Shown here one piece after another: positions 1,060 through 44,887 of a stretch of 64,000 nucleotides of DNA. The notes under the pieces are model-generated. The model did not search any database. It was not told the DNA's origin and saw nothing but the letters and a program-made list of their open reading frames with translations. The translations under genes were made by a program, and so were the position numbers. How positions within the stretch are numbered: position 1 is the first letter of the stretch; every line of letters begins with the position of its first letter. The stretch lies in contig JANXXU010000048.1 in assembly GCA_025350465.1 (NCBI GenBank), forward strand, positions 248,001-312,000, read 5' to 3'. Origin of the DNA: Alphaproteobacteria bacterium (GTDB lineage Bacteria > Pseudomonadota > Alphaproteobacteria > Micropepsales > Micropepsaceae).

Positions 1060-1551
1060 GCGCGAACTCCCGTGTGTTCTTGTCATTACGATGTTGTTTG
1101 TTGTTGCAAATGAAAATTCTGACCAATTCTTATAAGGCTTTTCGCTTAGACTACTCAATCGCGAACGGGTCGACCCCAAAGTTATTTCTTCGTTAGGTTA
1201 AGTCGCATCAGTCTTCTTTGGGGATAATTATTCTGCTGCCGCAACAGTCAGAATTTCCGGGGCGATTGGTCGAGTTCCAAGGGCAGGACTGCGACGTCGC
1301 TCTTGGAGAGAGAATTGGGCGAACTCGCGCATTCCGGGTAACCGGCGATGTGTCAAGCCTCTCTTACGGCGTCTTCGAGCCGATTGTGTACGTCGAAACA
1401 CTTGTCCTGGCGCCTAATGGAGCGCCCATAGAATTAGCGAAGCATCTTCGCAAATGCTCAAGCCCTTGTGGAAATCACTAAATTTTGCCACCTATAGTAG
1501 GTTGGGGATGGCCCAAGAATACCGGTTGGGCTGATAAGAGCTTTAAAATCA
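1060..1551. other. mucR-nrdR intergenic region, AT-rich, no convincing gene
   Basis: About 490 bases separate the divergent mucR and nrdR genes. The mucR-proximal part (about 1080-1230) is clearly richer in A and T than its surroundings. It contains an inverted repeat, CCCCAAAG (1174-1181) with CTTTGGGG (1216-1223), whose arms are 34 bases apart. MucR proteins favour AT-rich DNA, so this is a plausible regulatory region. An open frame of 87 codons (1218-1481, plus strand) starts only with TTG, shows no recognisable domain and no clear ribosome-binding site, so I do not call it as a gene. Confidence 0.4.
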
Positions 1552-2019
1552 ATGCGTTGCCCATTTTGCCAACATGATGACACGCAGGTCAAAGACAGTC
1601 GGCCTACTGAAGACAACGCTGCGATTAGGCGACGTCGCGTGTGCCCTGCCTGTGGCGCGCGTTTTACGACGTTTGAGCGCGTTCAGTTGCGCGATCTGAT
1701 CGTCATAAAGAAGAGCGGGCGCCGGGTTCCGTTCGACCGTGACAAACTGATGCGCTCAATTCAGCACGCAATTCGCAAACGTCCAGTGGAACCGGAGCGC
1801 GTCGAGCGAATGGTCAACGGCATAGTGCGCCGGCTCGAGAGTTCCGGCGAAACGGAAATTCAATCGACTGCGATCGGCGAGTTGGTCATGCAAGGGCTAG
1901 GGAACCTCGATACCGTCGCGTACGTGCGCTTTGCGTCTGTTTATAAGAATTTCCGAGAAGCCAAAGACTTTGAAAATATTATCGGTCAACTAAACGAGCC
2001 AGACGGCAAGAGTTCGTGA
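1552..2019 (+). CDS. nrdR: Transcriptional repressor NrdR
   Basis: NrdR senses ATP/dATP and represses ribonucleotide reductase operons. The 155-residue product has the full family layout. An N-terminal zinc ribbon has cysteine pairs at MRCPFCQ (residues 3 and 6) and [13 protein letters not shown] (about 31-34). An ATP-cone domain (about 49-139) includes [16 protein letters not shown] and [13 protein letters not shown]. Length and order match the family. It heads the riboflavin operon, and its stop overlaps the GTG start of ribD. In many relatives glyA lies just upstream of nrdR; here glyA is elsewhere (40.2 kb). Confidence 0.97.
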
Positions 2020-36015: not shown

Positions 36016-36708
36016 ATGACTGACTTCAAAGGCTTTCCCAAGGATTTCTTCCAGTTCTTCAAAGAGCTCGCCAAGAACAACGAGCGACCGTGGTTCGAAG
36101 AGAACAAGGAGCGCTACAAGGCCGTCGTCGTGGCCCCGATGTCGGACTTCATTACGGCGATGTCGCCCCGCTTGGCAAAGATATCGAAGCACTTCGTCGC
36201 CGATCCGCGACCGAACGGCGGCTCGATGTTTCGCATCTACCGCGACGTGCGCTTCGCCAAGGACAAGCGCCCCTACAAGGAGCACGCGTCGTGCCATTTT
36301 CGCCAGGCCGGCGGCAAGGACGTGCACGCGCCAGGCTTCTATATGCACTTCGCGCCGGACGAGGTGCTCTTCGGCGGCGGCATGTGGATGCCGGAACCGG
36401 AGTCGCTGAACAAAATCCGCCAGTCGATCGCGGGCGACGCGAAGGCCTGGCGCAAAGTCGTCGAGGACAAGGGCTTCAAGGCGGCGTTCAAAGAGGTCCA
36501 CGGCGATGCGCTCTCGCGGCCGCCACGCGGCTTTGACCCGGCGCACCCCTACATTGAAGACATCAAGCGCAAGAGCTTCTTCGCAATGCACGAGTCGACG
36601 CCCAAGGCCACGCAATCGGCGACGCTGCTCGATGACGTGGAGGCGACGTTTCGCGCCGCCAAGCCTTTGATGAAATTTCTCTGCGCCGCCGTCGGCGCGC
36701 CATATTGA
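36016..36708 (+). CDS. DUF2461 family protein
   Basis: The 230-residue product matches DUF2461, a widespread family of unknown function. It begins FKGFPKDFFQFFKELAKNNE and contains RPWFEENKERYKAVVVAPM, the conserved MFRIYRDVRFAKDKRPYKEH, PGFYMHFAPDEVLFGGGMW and LKRPPRGFD-like text (LSRPPRGFDPAHPYIEDIKR). The RDVRFSKDK-type motif is the family signature. The ATG at 36016 gives the usual length. It neighbours an esterase with no obvious link. Confidence 0.92.
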   Translation: MTDFKGFPKDFFQFFKELAKNNERPWFEENKERYKAVVVAPMSDFITAMSPRLAKISKHFVADPRPNGGSMFRIYRDVRFAKDKRPYKEHASCHFRQAGGKDVHAPGFYMHFAPDEVLFGGGMWMPEPESLNKIRQSIAGDAKAWRKVVEDKGFKAAFKEVHGDALSRPPRGFDPAHPYIEDIKRKSFFAMHESTPKATQSATLLDDVEATFRAAKPLMKFLCAAVGAPY

Positions 36709-36761
36709 AGTTTGCGCCGGAATCACTGAAGCCCAACGTTGAACGGGCAAGGAGCGCCACC

Positions 36762-37676
36762 ATGCGCAATGTAGCCTTGATGCTCGCCATCATCGTTTGC
36801 TCGGTGCCAATGGCCAGTGCCGCGGAACGTGAGCGCGCACTTGAGATCGGCGGTAAGCAGCGCAACTACATCCTGGTCACCCCCGACAAGCAGTCGGTGC
36901 CGGCGCCGCTCTTGATCGTCTATCACGGGGGCGGGGACTCGCCGCGCCGCGCGCTCAGCTATACGCGCTTCGATAGGTTGGCCGGTCAGGAAAACGTCGC
37001 CGTTGTTTTTCCGCAGGGCATCGACGGCAATTGGAACGACGGCCGGCAGACGACCGATATCCGCCAGCGGGCTTCGTCGAACGCCGATGACGTCACATTC
37101 ACGCTGGCGATCATCGACCAGCTGGCGGGTGAGCATATCGTCGATCCTGCTCGCGTCTTCCTGACGGGCGCGTCGAACGGGGGCATGATGACGTTGCGCA
37201 CGGCCTGCGACGCGGCCGATCGCATCGCCGGTATCGCGCCCGTCGTCGCCAACCAGCCGACCGACTGGCAATGCGCTCCGTCGCGCGCCATCCCCGCGAT
37301 GTTCTTCAACGGCACCGAGGACGAATTTATGCCGTTCAATGGGGGACGCATTGCCGAGCACAAAACGCGCAAGGATTTGGGCGCGGTCGAGAGCGTTGAA
37401 GATACGATCGCCGCGTTTCGCCGCATCGACGGCTGCTCCGGCATCAAGAAAACCGAGACGCGCGACGAACATGATAGCGACCAAACGCGTGCCATCGTAA
37501 CCGACTACGAATGCTCGAAGGCGCCGCTGCGCCAAGTCGTCATCGAAGGCGGTGGCCACACTTGGCCGGGCGCCCGTACCAACATCATCGCCAACATGGT
37601 CCTCGGCCGCACGACGCCCGAAATCGATGCGACCAAGGAGATTTGGGATTTTTTCAAGAGCCTGCCGGGCCGTTAG
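36762..37676 (+). CDS. Secreted LpqC/PHB-depolymerase-type esterase
   Basis: The 304-residue protein has a signal peptide (VALMLAIIVCSVPMASA, cleavage near residue 22). An alpha/beta-hydrolase of the LpqC or poly(3-hydroxybutyrate) depolymerase family follows: PLLIVYHGGGDSPRRAL, FPQGIDGNWNDGRQ, the nucleophile elbow LTGASNGGMMTL, FFNGTEDEFMPFNGG with the likely acid, and GGGHTWPGA with the catalytic His. Members include feruloyl esterases and depolymerases, so the substrate is open. The ATG at 36762 follows an AAGGAG site. Its stop overlaps the convergent acyl-CoA dehydrogenase stop by four bases. Confidence 0.88.
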   Translation: MRNVALMLAIIVCSVPMASAAERERALEIGGKQRNYILVTPDKQSVPAPLLIVYHGGGDSPRRALSYTRFDRLAGQENVAVVFPQGIDGNWNDGRQTTDIRQRASSNADDVTFTLAIIDQLAGEHIVDPARVFLTGASNGGMMTLRTACDAADRIAGIAPVVANQPTDWQCAPSRAIPAMFFNGTEDEFMPFNGGRIAEHKTRKDLGAVESVEDTIAAFRRIDGCSGIKKTETRDEHDSDQTRAIVTDYECSKAPLRQVVIEGGGHTWPGARTNIIANMVLGRTTPEIDATKEIWDFFKSLPGR

Positions 37677-39348: not shown

Positions 39349-39927
39349 TTACTTCGCTGTCGCGGTCAGCTCCGCGAAGTTGAGCGGAATGTCGAAGCCG
39401 CCGGCCTCGGTCGCCGTCAAGACGCGGCCGTGGATGGTCAGCTTGTCGCCGGTGCTCAGGCGGCCGGTGTTGCAATGAAAGGTGGCGCCAAAGGTCAGTC
39501 GCGACAAGGCCTGGATCTGCGTCATCGTTCGAACCGTCGTTTCGCCTTCGGAGGCTACGACTTTGATGTCGGTGATCTCATTCTCCTTGGCGTCACACTT
39601 GGCGCCCGCCGCACTCGTCAGTTCAAGTCCGATCCCATTTCGCGCCGCAGCCATCGAGGCTAAAACGACTCGCGCCACGGAATGGCTCAGGTTCTCGATC
39701 GACAGTTTCGCCTTCGCGCCGAGGGAACCGTCGAGTGCCAACGCCTCGACGCGAAAGCGCAGCGGCCCATGAGTGAAGTCGTTGTGCGACTCCGCCGCTG
39801 CGGCAGGCGCGGGCGCCGGCGCTGGACCGGATGCAGCGACGGCAAGGGGAAACCTACCGGCCACGAGCACGGTGGCGCAAATCAATATGCGCACAGCGTT
39901 GCGCCCGAAGTTCGATGAAAGCATCAT
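39349..39927 (-). CDS. Secreted hypothetical protein, 192 aa
   Basis: The product has a signal peptide (ILICATVLVAGRFPLAVAA, cleavage near 33), an Ala/Pro linker (about 34-47) and a beta-rich domain (about 50-190). That domain includes FTHGPLRFRVEALALDG, KAKLSIENLSHSVARVVLA and LTFGATFHCNTGRLSTGD, with two cysteines that could form a disulfide. I recognise no family. It sits 23 bases upstream of the AidB-like gene on the same strand, so the two may be co-transcribed. Two adjacent ATG codons could start it; an AGGGGA element precedes both. Confidence 0.7.
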   Translation of the reverse strand: MMLSSNFGRNAVRILICATVLVAGRFPLAVAASGPAPAPAPAAAAESHNDFTHGPLRFRVEALALDGSLGAKAKLSIENLSHSVARVVLASMAAARNGIGLELTSAAGAKCDAKENEITDIKVVASEGETTVRTMTQIQALSRLTFGATFHCNTGRLSTGDKLTIHGRVLTATEAGGFDIPLNFAELTATAK

Positions 39928-40078
39928 GCTGGTCCCCTTAGCGTTGTGGACATGTTAGGGGTCGACGCGGAATACCTCAAACGGCCCAACAATTCAGCCG
40001 CGCCGCGTCGCACCATCGGCTCTTGACTTGCGGCGCCCCCTCGCGCCACTTCTTGGCACAAGACCGGCCGCAAGCCGT

Positions 40079-40160
40079 CCTTTCGTGACTGGCGTATTCA
40101 ACGTGGGCTTGAGCCACGGGGAAGCGAAAGGGCGGGGTCCTCATGCCGCACGCCTGGGCA
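40079..40160 (+). promoter_or_regulatory. ZTP (pfl) riboswitch upstream of glyA
   Basis: The sequence matches the pfl/ZTP aptamer. P1 forms between CCTTTCG (40079-40085) and CGAAAGG (40125-40131). The conserved GTGACTGGCG follows P1's 5' strand. A hairpin CGTGG/CCACG (40102-40106 / 40114-40118) leads into CGGGGAAGCG. The 3' domain ends CCGCACGCCTGGGCA (40146-40160), whose CGCC can pair with the GGCG at 40091-40094 as the known pseudoknot. ZTP signals low 10-formyl-tetrahydrofolate and turns on one-carbon genes, and glyA is a classic target. The region 40162-40187 contains a TCCGC/GCGGA stem before the Shine-Dalgarno site (GAGGAGG, 40194-40200), a possible expression platform. Confidence 0.9.
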
Positions 40161-40211
40161 ATCCGCTTGCAAGACGTTTGACGCGGACAAATTGAGGAGG
40201 CGAGCAATCCC

Positions 40212-41468
40212 ATGATCGACTATCGAGCGGCCTTGAAGGCCACCGACCCCGACGTATTCGAAGCTCTCATCGGCGAGGAGCGGCGCCAACGCGACGGCGT
40301 CGAAATGATTCCGTCCGAGAACTATGCGTTCCCCGAAGTGCTGGCGGCACTGGGCACGGTCTTTACTAACAAATATTCCGAAGGCTATCCGGGCCGGCGG
40401 TATTACGGCGGCACCGAGTTCGTCGACGTGATCGAGAATTTGGCGCGTGATCGCGCCAAGGCGCTCTTCCGCGGCGAGCACGCGAACGTGCAGCCGCTCT
40501 CGGGCTCGCCGATGAATCAGGCCGTGTATCTCGGCTTCATCGAGCCCGGCGCCACGATCCTGGCGATGGACTTGAGCCACGGCGGACACCTGACGCACGG
40601 CGCCCCAGTCTCGCATATGGGCAAAATCTATCGCTTCGTACGCTACAAGACGAACCCGCAGGACGGCTCGATTGACTTCGATCATCTGCGCGACATGGCG
40701 GTGAAGGAAAAGCCGAAACTCGTGGTCTGCGGCTATTCCTCATATCCGCGCGACTATGATTACAAACCTTTCAAGCAGATCGCGGATGAAGTCGGCGCCT
40801 TGACGATGGCCGATGTCAGTCACATCGGCGGGTTGATCGCCGGCGGCGCGATGCGCAATCCGATGGATGCGGGCTTCGATTTCTTGACCACGACGACGCA
40901 CAAATCGCTGCGCGGTCCGCGCGGCGGTTTGATCGTGTGCAAGAAAGAACATGCGAAGGCGATCGATCAATCCGTGTTTCCCGGCCTGCAAGGCGGGCCG
41001 CATATGAATCAGGTGGCCGCGACCGCCGTGGCGCTGAAACTCGCGAGCCAACCGTCGTTTCAAACTTATGCCACGCAAGTGCTGAAGAATGCGAAAGCCT
41101 TGGCGGCGGCGCTTGACAATCAAGGCGCCTATCTCGTGACCGGCGGCACGGACAATCATTTGATGGTCATCGATGTCGTGAAGAGCTTCGGCATGAACGG
41201 TGCAGAAGCGGAGAAAGCGCTTGATCACGCCGGCATCACGACCAACAAGCAGGTGATCCCCGACGATCCCAATCCGCCGCTGAAGCCCTCAGGCGTTCGT
41301 CTCGGCACACCTGCGGCGACGACGCGCGGCATGAAGGAAGGCGAGATGAAGGCGCTGGCCCGCGTCATGGTCGAAGCGTTGAAGAATCACAAGGAGCCAC
41401 GCCGGTTGGAAGCGTTGCGCCAAGAAACGCGCGTGCTCTGTTCGCGCTTTCCCGTTCCGGGTCTGTGA
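40212..41468 (+). CDS. glyA: Serine hydroxymethyltransferase
   Basis: SHMT interconverts serine and glycine while charging tetrahydrofolate with a one-carbon unit. The 418-residue PLP enzyme has EMIPSENYAFPEVLAALG, NKYSEGYPGRRYYGGTE, NVQPLSGSPMNQAVY, MDLSHGGHLTHG, MADVSHIGGLIAGG and the Schiff-base Lys231 in TTTTHKSLRGPRGG. These are family motifs with slight changes (Ser for Ala in ADVSHI). It is controlled by a ZTP riboswitch, is separate from nrdR, and is followed by an overlapping acetyltransferase gene. A strong GAGGAGG site precedes the ATG. Confidence 0.96.
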   Translation: MIDYRAALKATDPDVFEALIGEERRQRDGVEMIPSENYAFPEVLAALGTVFTNKYSEGYPGRRYYGGTEFVDVIENLARDRAKALFRGEHANVQPLSGSPMNQAVYLGFIEPGATILAMDLSHGGHLTHGAPVSHMGKIYRFVRYKTNPQDGSIDFDHLRDMAVKEKPKLVVCGYSSYPRDYDYKPFKQIADEVGALTMADVSHIGGLIAGGAMRNPMDAGFDFLTTTTHKSLRGPRGGLIVCKKEHAKAIDQSVFPGLQGGPHMNQVAATAVALKLASQPSFQTYATQVLKNAKALAAALDNQGAYLVTGGTDNHLMVIDVVKSFGMNGAEAEKALDHAGITTNKQVIPDDPNPPLKPSGVRLGTPAATTRGMKEGEMKALARVMVEALKNHKEPRRLEALRQETRVLCSRFPVPGL

Positions 41469-41992
41469 GCGGCAAAGCGAAAATCGAGACCGAGCGGCTC
41501 ATCCTCGTGCCGCTCGATCGTTCCTGGCGCCAAGATCTCATTCGCCTGCATCGCGACCCGGTGGTGGTCAACTGGCTCTTTGGCGGCAAGGTGCCTCCCG
41601 ACAAGGATGACGACAAGCGCATCGCGCATTACGAAGAATTATGGAAGGAGCGCGGCTACGGCGCTTTTGCCGTCACTGACAAGATCACCGGCGCCTTCCT
41701 CGGCCGCGCCGGTCCGGTGGTCACGCCCGAAACCGACCGCATCGAGATCGTCTGGTCGATGCTCTCGACCGTCCACGGTCGAGGCATCGCCACGGAATCG
41801 GCGCGCGCCGCGATTGATTTCACCTTTGCGCAAAGCGATCTCGCCGTGCTCGATGCTTACGTACGGCCCGACAACGTTGCTTCTCAACGCGTCGCGGGGA
41901 AGCTTGGTTTCCAATTGATCGACCAGCGTTTGCTTTACGCCATGACGCTCAACTACTACCGGCTCGAACGCCGGGGTGGCGGAACTTGCTAG
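41465..41992 (+). CDS. GNAT-family N-acetyltransferase (RimJ/RimL type)
   Basis: The 175-residue protein begins IETERLILVPLDRSWRQDLI, the pattern of RimJ/RimL-like acetyltransferases. It has GYGAFAVTDKITGAFLGRAG, IEIVWSMLSTVHGRGIATES (the acetyl-CoA loop Gly-Arg-Gly-Ile-Ala) and AYVRPDNVASQRVAGKLGFQ. The acceptor (protein N-terminus, antibiotic or metabolite) is unknown. The GTG start overlaps the glyA stop (GTGA), so the gene is probably co-regulated with glyA by the riboswitch. Confidence 0.9.
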   Translation: MSGKAKIETERLILVPLDRSWRQDLIRLHRDPVVVNWLFGGKVPPDKDDDKRIAHYEELWKERGYGAFAVTDKITGAFLGRAGPVVTPETDRIEIVWSMLSTVHGRGIATESARAAIDFTFAQSDLAVLDAYVRPDNVASQRVAGKLGFQLIDQRLLYAMTLNYYRLERRGGGTC

Positions 41993-42336
41993 CAGTGCCT
42001 CGCGTTATCAGCGAGGCCTCAGCCACTCGGGTTGCGGCCCGTGTAAGGGCCCAGTCTAGGTCTCCAGAAATCCCTCAATTCGCCCAAGGCATCCCACTGT
42101 TATTCGCTGTAAATTACCAAAATTTACAGCGACAATAATATTGCCACACTTACGAAGCCTGCTTCCGGGCACACGCCTCTAGGCACTCATCGCACTTTTG
42201 GCTGCGACAACCCTCAAATTCAGATCGACGATGTCAATGATCGGAGAGCCCGCGTCGGGCATCAAACTCACTAGAACATACATAGAACAAAATTGCGCTC
42301 GGCGCAATGCCGCCCCGCCGTTAGTTGGTTGTGAGG
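41993..42336. other. Gene-free intergenic region with two hairpins
   Basis: About 340 bases separate the acetyltransferase and the next minus-strand gene. A stem GCCTCGC (41997-42003) / GCGAGGC (42011-42017), with a seven-base loop, could be a weak terminator for the glyA operon; it lacks a T-run. The stretch from about 42060 to 42330 is richer in A and T. It holds the palindrome described separately and no open frame that looks coding. Confidence 0.5.
42104..42132. repeat. Perfect 12-bp inverted repeat in AT-rich intergenic DNA
   Basis: TCGCTGTAAATT (42104-42115) and AATTTACAGCGA (42121-42132) are exact reverse complements around a five-base centre ACCAA. No T-run follows, so an operator or cruciform-forming site is as likely as a terminator. 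No regulator gene lies directly beside it. Confidence 0.7.
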
Positions 42337-42720
42337 TCACTGGATATCCGGGCGCACGATTGTCCAAAACGTACCGGCCGCGACGATGCCTGAACCCACT
42401 GCAAGCGCAGGGAAAAACATCGATCTCGAGAGTTCAGCCAACAGGTCGTTTGGCCCAAGAAAGACGTACACCATTGAACCCATGGCGGCTCCGGCGAGCA
42501 GATAGACACCGAGGCCGTCGAGCTTAAAAAATCGCAGCGCCACAAACGCCGGGACACCGAGGATCAATGTCGTTGGATAAGCGATCATGGCGCCAAGTAT
42601 GAAGACCCCAACAGCCTCTCCGGAATTGCCAAAGAAGGCGCCGAGGATCATGAACACGAAGCCTGGGACAGCCGGCGCGACAAGAAATCCGATCAAAGTC
42701 CTTCGTCGCCTCGACCACAT
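42337..42720 (-). CDS. Small four-helix membrane protein, unknown function
   Basis: The 127-residue product has a basic start (MWSRRRRTLIG) and four predicted membrane segments, including LVAPAVPGFVFMILGAFFG, VGVFILGAMIAYPTTLILGV and YLLAGAAMGSMVYVFLG. No catalytic motif or family is recognisable. It stands alone, preceded by a short gap to a lipoprotein gene on the same strand. Confidence 0.65.
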   Translation of the reverse strand: MWSRRRRTLIGFLVAPAVPGFVFMILGAFFGNSGEAVGVFILGAMIAYPTTLILGVPAFVALRFFKLDGLGVYLLAGAAMGSMVYVFLGPNDLLAELSRSMFFPALAVGSGIVAAGTFWTIVRPDIQ

Positions 42721-42762: not shown

Positions 42763-43332
42763 TCAGCGGTCGTGCTTGAACACGCCGTCGAGCCACGTCG
42801 CCAGCGCCTCGGCGGCGGGCGAGGGGTTGGTGCGTTCGAAATCGCCCTTCTGATCGATCAGCACCTGGCGATAGGTGGCGTAAGGAACATGGCGCGCGAG
42901 ACAATAGAGCGTGGTCTCGCCCATATCGGCGCCGGCGTTCCGGCCTTCCATCGACGCCACCGTCGCCGCTTCTCGGATCAGCGGCATGTGCTGGGCGATG
43001 TCATCGGCGGTGACGCTCCGACCGGTATCGACCGCGCCGTTGTAGCGAACCTTGAGTTCGTCTTCGCTCATGTTGTTTAAGTCTTTGGCGTGCCACGGAT
43101 TGGGCAAGCTCGCGGGCGTGCCCTTGATATCGTAGCGCCACACGCGCCCCTCACCATCGAGCACGACGCCGTGGCGCTGATAACCCCATGCGTAGTTCTC
43201 GTATTCCTGCCCGCAGATCCACGATTGCGCCGTCGGTTCGGGTGTGGGCGTTTGACCAGCAGGTCCTGTACTCGCGGTGTTGCAGCCGCAGAGCGCAAGA
43301 GCAGTAAGCGACGCGATAACGAAGCGCTTCAT
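42763..43332 (-). CDS. Putative lipoprotein, 189 aa
   Basis: The protein has a lipoprotein signal (VIASLTALALCGCNTAS, lipobox LCGC near residue 16). A Pro/Thr linker and a domain with CGQEYENYAWGYQRHGVVLD follow, then GEGRVWRYDIKGTPASLPN and MGETTLYCLARHVPYATYRQ. Two cysteines in the mature part may form a disulfide. I recognise no family. The ATG at 43332 is chosen because the upstream in-frame extension (to 43422) would place 30 arginine-rich residues ahead of the signal peptide. Confidence 0.72.
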   Translation of the reverse strand: MKRFVIASLTALALCGCNTASTGPAGQTPTPEPTAQSWICGQEYENYAWGYQRHGVVLDGEGRVWRYDIKGTPASLPNPWHAKDLNNMSEDELKVRYNGAVDTGRSVTADDIAQHMPLIREAATVASMEGRNAGADMGETTLYCLARHVPYATYRQVLIDQKGDFERTNPSPAAEALATWLDGVFKHDR

Positions 43333-43431
43333 GTTCAGCTCTCGCAATGCGATCCGGCGTAGCAATGACGCCCGATTGTGGCGGGATCGCGTCAGTTCAC
43401 ACGAGAGTCGGATGCGAAGCAATACCGCAGC

Positions 43432-43900: not shown

Positions 43901-44887
43901 CTATCTTGGTCGCTGCCGCTCGAAAAAGTTCCAGATTACTTCCGGTCCATTCGGCTCCGTGGGCGACGGGCCCAACAATCGCGGATGGCGCCGGTAGGGC
44001 TGCGGGATGCCATGTCCACCGCCGTGAACGGCAACCAGCTCCACCTCAACTTTCGAGTCGTTTCGCCAGAGCACCCGCTCGACGCGAACGCCCTCAGCCG
44101 CTTCGGTCTGGCTCGTTACGGGCGGAGCGGCGATGTTATTGAGGTCGGCAAAATACTGACCTGATGCCCGCGACGACCGGACCTTGCCGTTCCTCAGGAA
44201 TAGGCCGAAGAGATTGACGTCTCCGCCGTCGAACGGGACGATGGGGTCCTCGGTACCGTTCATGATCATGACGGACGACGTGCCGGGTCCCGCGGCCTTG
44301 CATTTGAAATTGTCCGGCGTCGGCACGTTCGCCGATACGGCCGCAACAGCGCGGAAGCGCGAAGGCGCTTCGAGTGCTAGGCGAAACGCCATAAAACCAC
44401 CGCGAGAACTGCCGGCGGCGAACACCCTGGCCGGGTCGACACCCAAGTCAGCAATGAGCTTGTCTGCCAGCGCAGCCAGGAATCCTACATCGTCGGTCTC
44501 GAGCCCGTCCGCGTCGCCGCCGCCAACGATGCCGCAGGCGTTCCAATAGCCCTCATACGCATCGGGATAGACGACCGCGAAGCCATTCTTGTCGGCCAGG
44601 CGCTCGAAGCCGTACCCGGTCTCGACGCGCATCCGCGCGCCGTTCTCTCCCGCGCCGTGCATCACCAGCACGAGCGGCGCGCCTTTCGAAAGCCCTTTGG
44701 GCACATAGACCCTGTAAATCCGATTGAGGCCACCGACTTCGATCGTTCCGCGAGTGAGCGTGCCGGACAGTTGCGGCACCTCGGGCGCGGGCGTGTAGAC
44801 GAAGATGGCGAACAGAGCACCGAGCACGCCAGCCAACGCAACGACGGCTATCGAGCCGTAAAGGAACACGCGCAGAACTCTTCTCAC
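43901..44887 (-). CDS. LpqC/PHB-depolymerase-type esterase, membrane-anchored
   Basis: The 328-residue protein starts with an uncleaved anchor or signal (VFLYGSIAVVALAGVLGALF, about 7-30). A domain of the same family as the esterase at 36.8 kb follows. It has PLVLVMHGAGENGARMRVET, YPDAYEGYWNACG, the nucleophile elbow AAGSSRGGFMAF, IMNGTEDPIVPFDGGD and VHGGGHGIPQPYRRHP. The two paralogues share the order of motifs but differ in loops. Substrate is unknown. The presence of phaC at 47 kb makes hydroxyalkanoate chemistry possible but unproven. Confidence 0.85.
   Translation of the reverse strand: MRRVLRVFLYGSIAVVALAGVLGALFAIFVYTPAPEVPQLSGTLTRGTIEVGGLNRIYRVYVPKGLSKGAPLVLVMHGAGENGARMRVETGYGFERLADKNGFAVVYPDAYEGYWNACGIVGGGDADGLETDDVGFLAALADKLIADLGVDPARVFAAGSSRGGFMAFRLALEAPSRFRAVAAVSANVPTPDNFKCKAAGPGTSSVMIMNGTEDPIVPFDGGDVNLFGLFLRNGKVRSSRASGQYFADLNNIAAPPVTSQTEAAEGVRVERVLWRNDSKVEVELVAVHGGGHGIPQPYRRHPRLLGPSPTEPNGPEVIWNFFERQRPR

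Follow-up and report, generated by a model that had tools for sequence, protein, structure and literature searches.

What does a ZTP riboswitch control in a genome where only one serine hydroxymethyltransferase (SHMT) can be found, and how did the two come to stand together? The question is raised by a 64,000-nt stretch of contig JANXXU010000048.1 (assembly GCA_025350465.1, Alphaproteobacteria, Micropepsaceae), here called the window, in which a ZTP-type leader, the gene glyA and a gene for a GNAT acetyltransferase follow one another on the forward strand. The pairing of such a riboswitch with glyA is an already known kind of unit: excerpts of an earlier survey name glyA among the five genes most common with the pfl motif (Weinberg 2010, PMC2864571), and excerpts of another report describe the glyA of Herbaspirillum seropedicae as preceded by such a switch (PMC7011215). 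The new point is evolutionary, namely that a housekeeping enzyme was seemingly replaced by a relative bringing its own RNA switch. The reading defended here, which we hold to be very probable, is that the ZTP riboswitch controls the cell's sole SHMT, that this SHMT was gained together with the riboswitch and the native one lost, and that the GNAT gene is an addition made in the genus.

The riboswitch and its target gene

A covariance search of the window (cmscan) matched RF01750 (ZMP-ZTP) over its full length, model positions 1-86 of 86, at 40075..40166 on the + strand, with 57.2 bits against a gathering cut-off of 39 and an E value of 1.2e-6; the match comprises P1, P2 and P3. A preliminary description of this DNA had named a pfl/ZTP aptamer ahead of glyA, and had proposed a search with the Rfam pfl model as a check: the full-length match above gathering and the genome comparison given below bear the aptamer out, and the interval first assigned to it (40079-40160) was correctly placed and a few bases short at either end. 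The pseudoknot of the same description was also recovered, as the letters GGCG at 40091..40094 and CGCC at 40151..40154 (both +); that these two halves pair is an assumption taken over from the known ZTP family. Genome-wide (4.06 Mb, 98% complete), the window's own match is the only one to RF01750 at E ≤0.001 (E 1.7e-8; 150 of 669 first-look candidates scored), and within the window the only other RNA families to reach gathering in the Rfam cmscan are two tRNAs. Judged by its sequence, the RNA is a textbook ZTP riboswitch ahead of glyA, ordinary as such, and would be expected to bind the usual ligand.

The proposed target, glyA, is borne out as well: a purine/one-carbon gene lies directly after the aptamer (40212..41468, +; ATG at 40212, stop at 41468), and its product scores as an SHMT above the cut-offs of both PF00464 (478.3 bits) and NCBIfam PRK00011 (535.4 bits; cut-off, 335). 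The translation contains TTTTHKSLRGPRGG, which we take to be the PLP lysine motif and whose THK is invariant in 11 aligned SHMT rows. This glyA, of the ZTP-linked clade described below, is the only PF00464 SHMT match in the window's genome. Alpha/beta hydrolase genes flank the locus on opposite strands (36705-37676 and 43901-44887), one matching Abhydrolase_2 and the other Esterase_PHB; two minus-strand frames nearby (39349-39927 and 42763-43422) have no Pfam match, and the second of them has a lipoprotein-like start as judged by eye.

The metabolic setting gives this single enzyme some weight. Formate-THF ligase (Fhs) had no match in the window's genome or in that of one congener, G002 (four of the six genus genomes tested have one), and a glycine decarboxylase match is present in the window's genome. 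Because one SHMT and no Fhs were found, GlyA should be a main one-carbon entry, which would fit a ZTP signal; if so, its uninduced level could hardly be nil. The proposed sequence of events is as follows. A shortage of 10-formyl-THF would cause AICAR nucleotides (ZMP/ZTP) to rise and occupy the aptamer, and the ligand-bound aptamer would then give more GlyA, an ON direction assumed from the known family and not from folding. GlyA would convert serine and THF into glycine and methylene-THF, a source of formyl-THF, and switching would take place at translation rather than at termination. The locus could thereby serve as a natural case of how a cell lives with its sole SHMT under folate-stress control.

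Mode and direction of switching

The leader between aptamer and glyA (40167..40211, +) has GAGGAGG ahead of the ATG and no T run of four or more. Translation control is the likeliest mode, perhaps with Rho, because this T run is missing, no terminator-like site was found on the + strand in 39900-42400 and GAGGAGG precedes the start codon. A sigma-70 scan of the same interval found no promoter; a TTGACTT block upstream of the aptamer is invariant in ten leaders and resembles a consensus -35 element.

The direction of switching was modelled with ViennaRNA in 14 leaders, each folded both freely and with the aptamer core imposed, in a model that has neither pseudoknot nor ligand energy. The SD site was found by script in ten of them (it was missed in G002, G005, G016 and G044, partly from the start codon chosen). 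With this crude folding, SD access in the modelled bound state went down in seven of the ten, up in two (G010 and G014) and stayed the same in one (G035). It fell from 0.43 to 0.05 in the window's genome (G000), from 0.43 to 0.20 in G001, from 0.50 to 0.23 in G004 and from 0.50 to 0.29 in G020, and by at most 0.07 in the other three falling leaders. Start-codon access in the same model rose in 11 of the 14 leaders and fell in three. Such folding lends no support to the presumed ON switch, and the SD figure alone would point to OFF. The corresponding alternative is an OFF switch in which formation of the aptamer hides the SD, TCCTCA in the linker before P3 pairing with TGAGGA at the ribosome site. 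The seven falling leaders speak for it, as does a tandem ZTP pair before moeA that is predicted to be OFF in excerpts of PMC9481103, but the model that lowers SD access raises start-codon access in most leaders, its fold carries neither pseudoknot nor ligand energy, the linker complement is by eye not kept in most genus members, and the same excerpts describe ZTP switches before folate genes as typically turning expression on (PMC9481103). We consider an OFF switch quite improbable, and an ON switch acting on translation is retained as the preferred reading. A conserved anti-SD drawn from the linker was considered separately and rejected: by eye, G000 and G001 have the pairing, G005 has it with a wobble, and the other genus members lack it.

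Two further helices were counted in ten leaders (nine of the genus and G016), in which the pattern was spotted by eye first and the percentages are biased towards it. GCAAGC (40070-40075) and GCTTGC (40165-40170) flank the aptamer and are conserved in the genus, and in all ten leaders the blocks CAAG and GCTTG immediately flanking the aptamer are conserved. As an outer helix, GCAAGC/GCTTGC pairs in 95.7% of cells, compared with 15.7-47.1% for slid versions; its covariation is not above shuffles (there is one two-sided change, which 149 of 500 shuffles reach, and the score is reached by 471 of 500). A competing hairpin upstream of the ribosome site, TTGCG/CGCAA, pairs in 89.8% of cells (slid versions, 22.4-44.0%), with no pair changed on both sides and covariation again not above shuffles. 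An outer helix around the aptamer could form from the CAAG/GCTTG blocks; it and the hairpin are kept as leads only.

Distribution of the riboswitch-glyA link

How constant is the link between this riboswitch and this glyA? The window's genome was compared with 60 relatives, giving a set of 61 genomes. A glyA at least 65% identical occurs in 14 of the 61, and all 14 have a ZTP match just upstream. In a fifteenth ZTP genome, G017, the ZTP match and the SHMT are on separate contigs. None of the 15 ZTP matches in the set stands before a native-type glyA. The riboswitch of G017 (L087, G017:C2:139574-139653) has no glyA, and a short GNAT-like frame, recognised by eye, starts 157 nt downstream of it.

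Within the genus the switch is present in nine of 11 genomes, and in all six whose completeness is 90% or more and whose contamination does not exceed 5%. All nine carriers have ZTP before glyA and GNAT behind it, and each has exactly one SHMT, three of them being 82-86% complete, so that a second SHMT could be absent from their assemblies. The two switch-less genomes, G003 and G006 (64% and 88% complete), gave no SHMT match at all. Across the family, ZTP matches were found in 19 of 96 genomes, and among five further family loci four precede a glyA of the ZTP-linked clade and one, in G100, another gene. The G100 riboswitch (L180 1874-1958, G100:C301) lies 30 nt upstream of a non-glyA frame of 154 aa that looks phosphatase- or sulfur-transferase-like by eye. 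Beyond the family, cmscan placed ZTP before glyA at two loci, L096 and L097; the glyA of a third, L098, gave no ZTP hit when the threshold was relaxed to E 5, and the 12 other loci scanned with L096 and L097 gave none either.

An empty slot and an apparently replaced enzyme

Where, then, is the native gene? Relatives share the gene order hemA-mucR-(glyA)-nrdR-ribD-ribE, and the window contains the same neighbourhood some 38 kb from the riboswitch. Gene content of this kind (MucR/Ros, the glyA-nrdR-rib order) would by itself suggest an alphaproteobacterium. Here the place of glyA between mucR and nrdR is empty (about 1180..1551, no strand assigned; the slot is defined by gene order against relatives, and its left edge, the mucR start, is approximate), and nrdR follows at 1552..2019 on the + strand (TIGR00244; Pfam Zn_ribbon_NrdR and ATP-cone). 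nrdR was located in 12 genomes for the comparison. All seven owners of a native glyA have it directly before nrdR (G014, G020, G031, G033, G035, G044 and G105; G033, G020 and G105 were compared side by side), and the order hemA-mucR-nrdR-ribD-ribE without glyA is found in G000, G001, G002, G004 and G016. A search of the window's slot with one native query found no glyA remnant (best E 8.7). Since the slot is empty here and filled in relatives, the native SHMT of this genome was apparently displaced by the ZTP-linked enzyme.

Displacement requires that the native gene is really gone. It might instead exist and have been lost in assembly gaps, leaving the ZTP-linked glyA a mere second copy: the genomes are drafts, and the two copies do coexist in other genera. 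Yet a single SHMT is found in all six good genus genomes, and the nrdR locus is assembled through, free of glyA, in the four genus genomes inspected, and a missed native gene is in our judgement hardly credible. The simplest reading is that an additional SHMT under riboswitch control was acquired first and that the native enzyme was lost afterwards. Both SHMTs are found together in G014, G020, G035, G044, G091, G104 and G105 and in a Parvibaculum genome, and such relatives may represent the intermediate state of the replacement. One ZTP-glyA carrier, G103, has a native glyA (G103:C2:759570-760705) matched in three pieces, perhaps from decay or sequencing error. No report of xenologous displacement of glyA was found in the open-licence literature.

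A tree of 67 SHMT sequences (midpoint root, author-chosen sampling) separates the two enzymes. The ZTP-linked clade contains 21 rows (support 100/100), and the native SHMTs of the class form a clade of their own with 16 rows (100/99). One Parvibaculum and two Gammaproteobacteria sequences (L096-L098) also fall in the ZTP-linked clade, which sits in a group with eight others (next sister 97/93): named Patescibacteria lineages and one labelled merely bacterium. The nearest kin of the ZTP-linked SHMT are Patescibacteria-type enzymes, and it is nested among them; on a tree with a midpoint root and author-chosen sampling, this can only hint at a transfer of the SHMT from Patescibacteria. The genomes of L096 and L098 have one SHMT each, of the ZTP-linked clade (completeness not given).

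The proposed history combines these observations. glyA would have arrived with its riboswitch, adding to the native enzyme another SHMT from a separate clade, and the nrdR-linked native glyA would then have been lost in the genus. A wider version of this history, which we favour with some reserve, is that a non-native ZTP-SHMT moved between Proteobacteria together with its riboswitch. It would initially have been an extra copy beside the native glyA and later have supplanted it in this genus, in G016, which belongs to a different genus of the family, and perhaps independently in Gammaproteobacteria. The whole SHMT supply would thereby have come under alarmone control.

The acetyltransferase behind glyA

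The third gene of the locus, for a GNAT acetyltransferase (Acetyltransf_3; PF13302, 83.8 bits, above the cut-off), lies at 41465..41992 (+; GTG at 41465, stop at 41992). In the window it shares 4 nt with the end of glyA, and by this overlap its translation is probably coupled to that of glyA. The preliminary description had treated it as a passenger switched on with glyA and had suggested surveying the adjacency in relatives. Within the genus the idea holds: GNAT lies behind glyA on the same strand in nine of nine carriers, and in six of them the distance from the glyA end to the start of GNAT homology is -4, 8, 9, 12, 13 or 58 nt. As a general unit it does not, since the distance is 417, 606 and 977 nt in the other three, with a MipA gene inserted in the 977-nt carrier, and in 12 carriers from beyond the genus tblastn (E 0.001) placed no relative of this GNAT beside glyA. 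Among these, G020 has a GNAT of 31% identity about 2.5 kb further on from glyA, G016 has a gene for an FMN_bind_2 protein next after glyA, and in G091 the search reached just about 1.3 kb past glyA. GNAT is a genus-level companion of glyA. It would have been added in this genus only, probably shares a transcript with glyA where the two stand close together, and is a candidate for a new component of the ZTP response, confined to a single genus in the present sample; no report of a ZTP riboswitch with an acetyltransferase was found in the open-licence literature.

What the protein may do can be approached through its fold. The AlphaFold model (8-row alignment) is a confident GNAT fold with a pLDDT of 91.7, its best structure matches in Foldseek are GNAT structures, and its nearest solved relative is PA3944 (profile E 7.5e-13; Foldseek E 4.0e-11). 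PA3944 is described, in excerpts of its report, as a GNAT with a catalytic serine, for which polymyxin B and an amine analogue serve as substrates (PMC8072286). N137, S140 and E94 of the window's GNAT align with PA3944 N145, S148 and E102, by a hand count in which chain numbers are shifted by two, and are invariant in eight aligned GNATs. The window's GNAT has the fold of a functional acetyltransferase, with matching residues in the active site, and is likely active as one; there is no ground to claim the same substrate as that of PA3944.

Whether this likely activity is tied to the switch can be argued in two ways. GNAT may be a real pathway partner, selected for being switched together with glyA; its substrate could then be, for example, a compound derived from ZMP or folate, an amino-acid compound, or SHMT itself. 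Its constancy behind glyA in all nine genus carriers, where most genes further on lack equivalents at the other loci examined, would fit such a role, as would the 4-nt overlap in the window and the invariant active-site residues. However, the adjacency is missing from every carrier outside the genus, GNAT has drifted faster than glyA (47-69% against 82-94% identity), and the nearest solved relative acts, in those excerpts, on polymyxin B and its amine analogue (PMC8072286); a partnership is rather unlikely. Alternatively, GNAT may stand behind glyA by chance, passed on within the genus and functionally unconnected with ZTP signalling. We give this about even chances: the confinement to one genus and the long gaps in three of the nine carriers, one with an inserted gene, speak for it, and its unvarying strand and position in all nine, together with its closeness to glyA in six, speak against it.

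Comparison with known systems

Three known systems bear comparison with the locus. First, the leader is like the pfl motif of RF01750 in its full-length match above gathering, its pseudoknot letters and its common target glyA; it differs in having no visible intrinsic terminator and in its conserved CAAG/GCTTG flanks. Second, the acetyltransferase shares with PA3944 the fold, a profile match and the equivalents of N145, S148 and E102, but it is only 26% identical and, by hand count, does not keep PA3944 T141. Third, the window's GlyA belongs to the same Pfam family as the native GlyA encoded beside nrdR and is about 50% identical to it, but it comes from another clade and lies at another locus, away from nrdR and behind a riboswitch.
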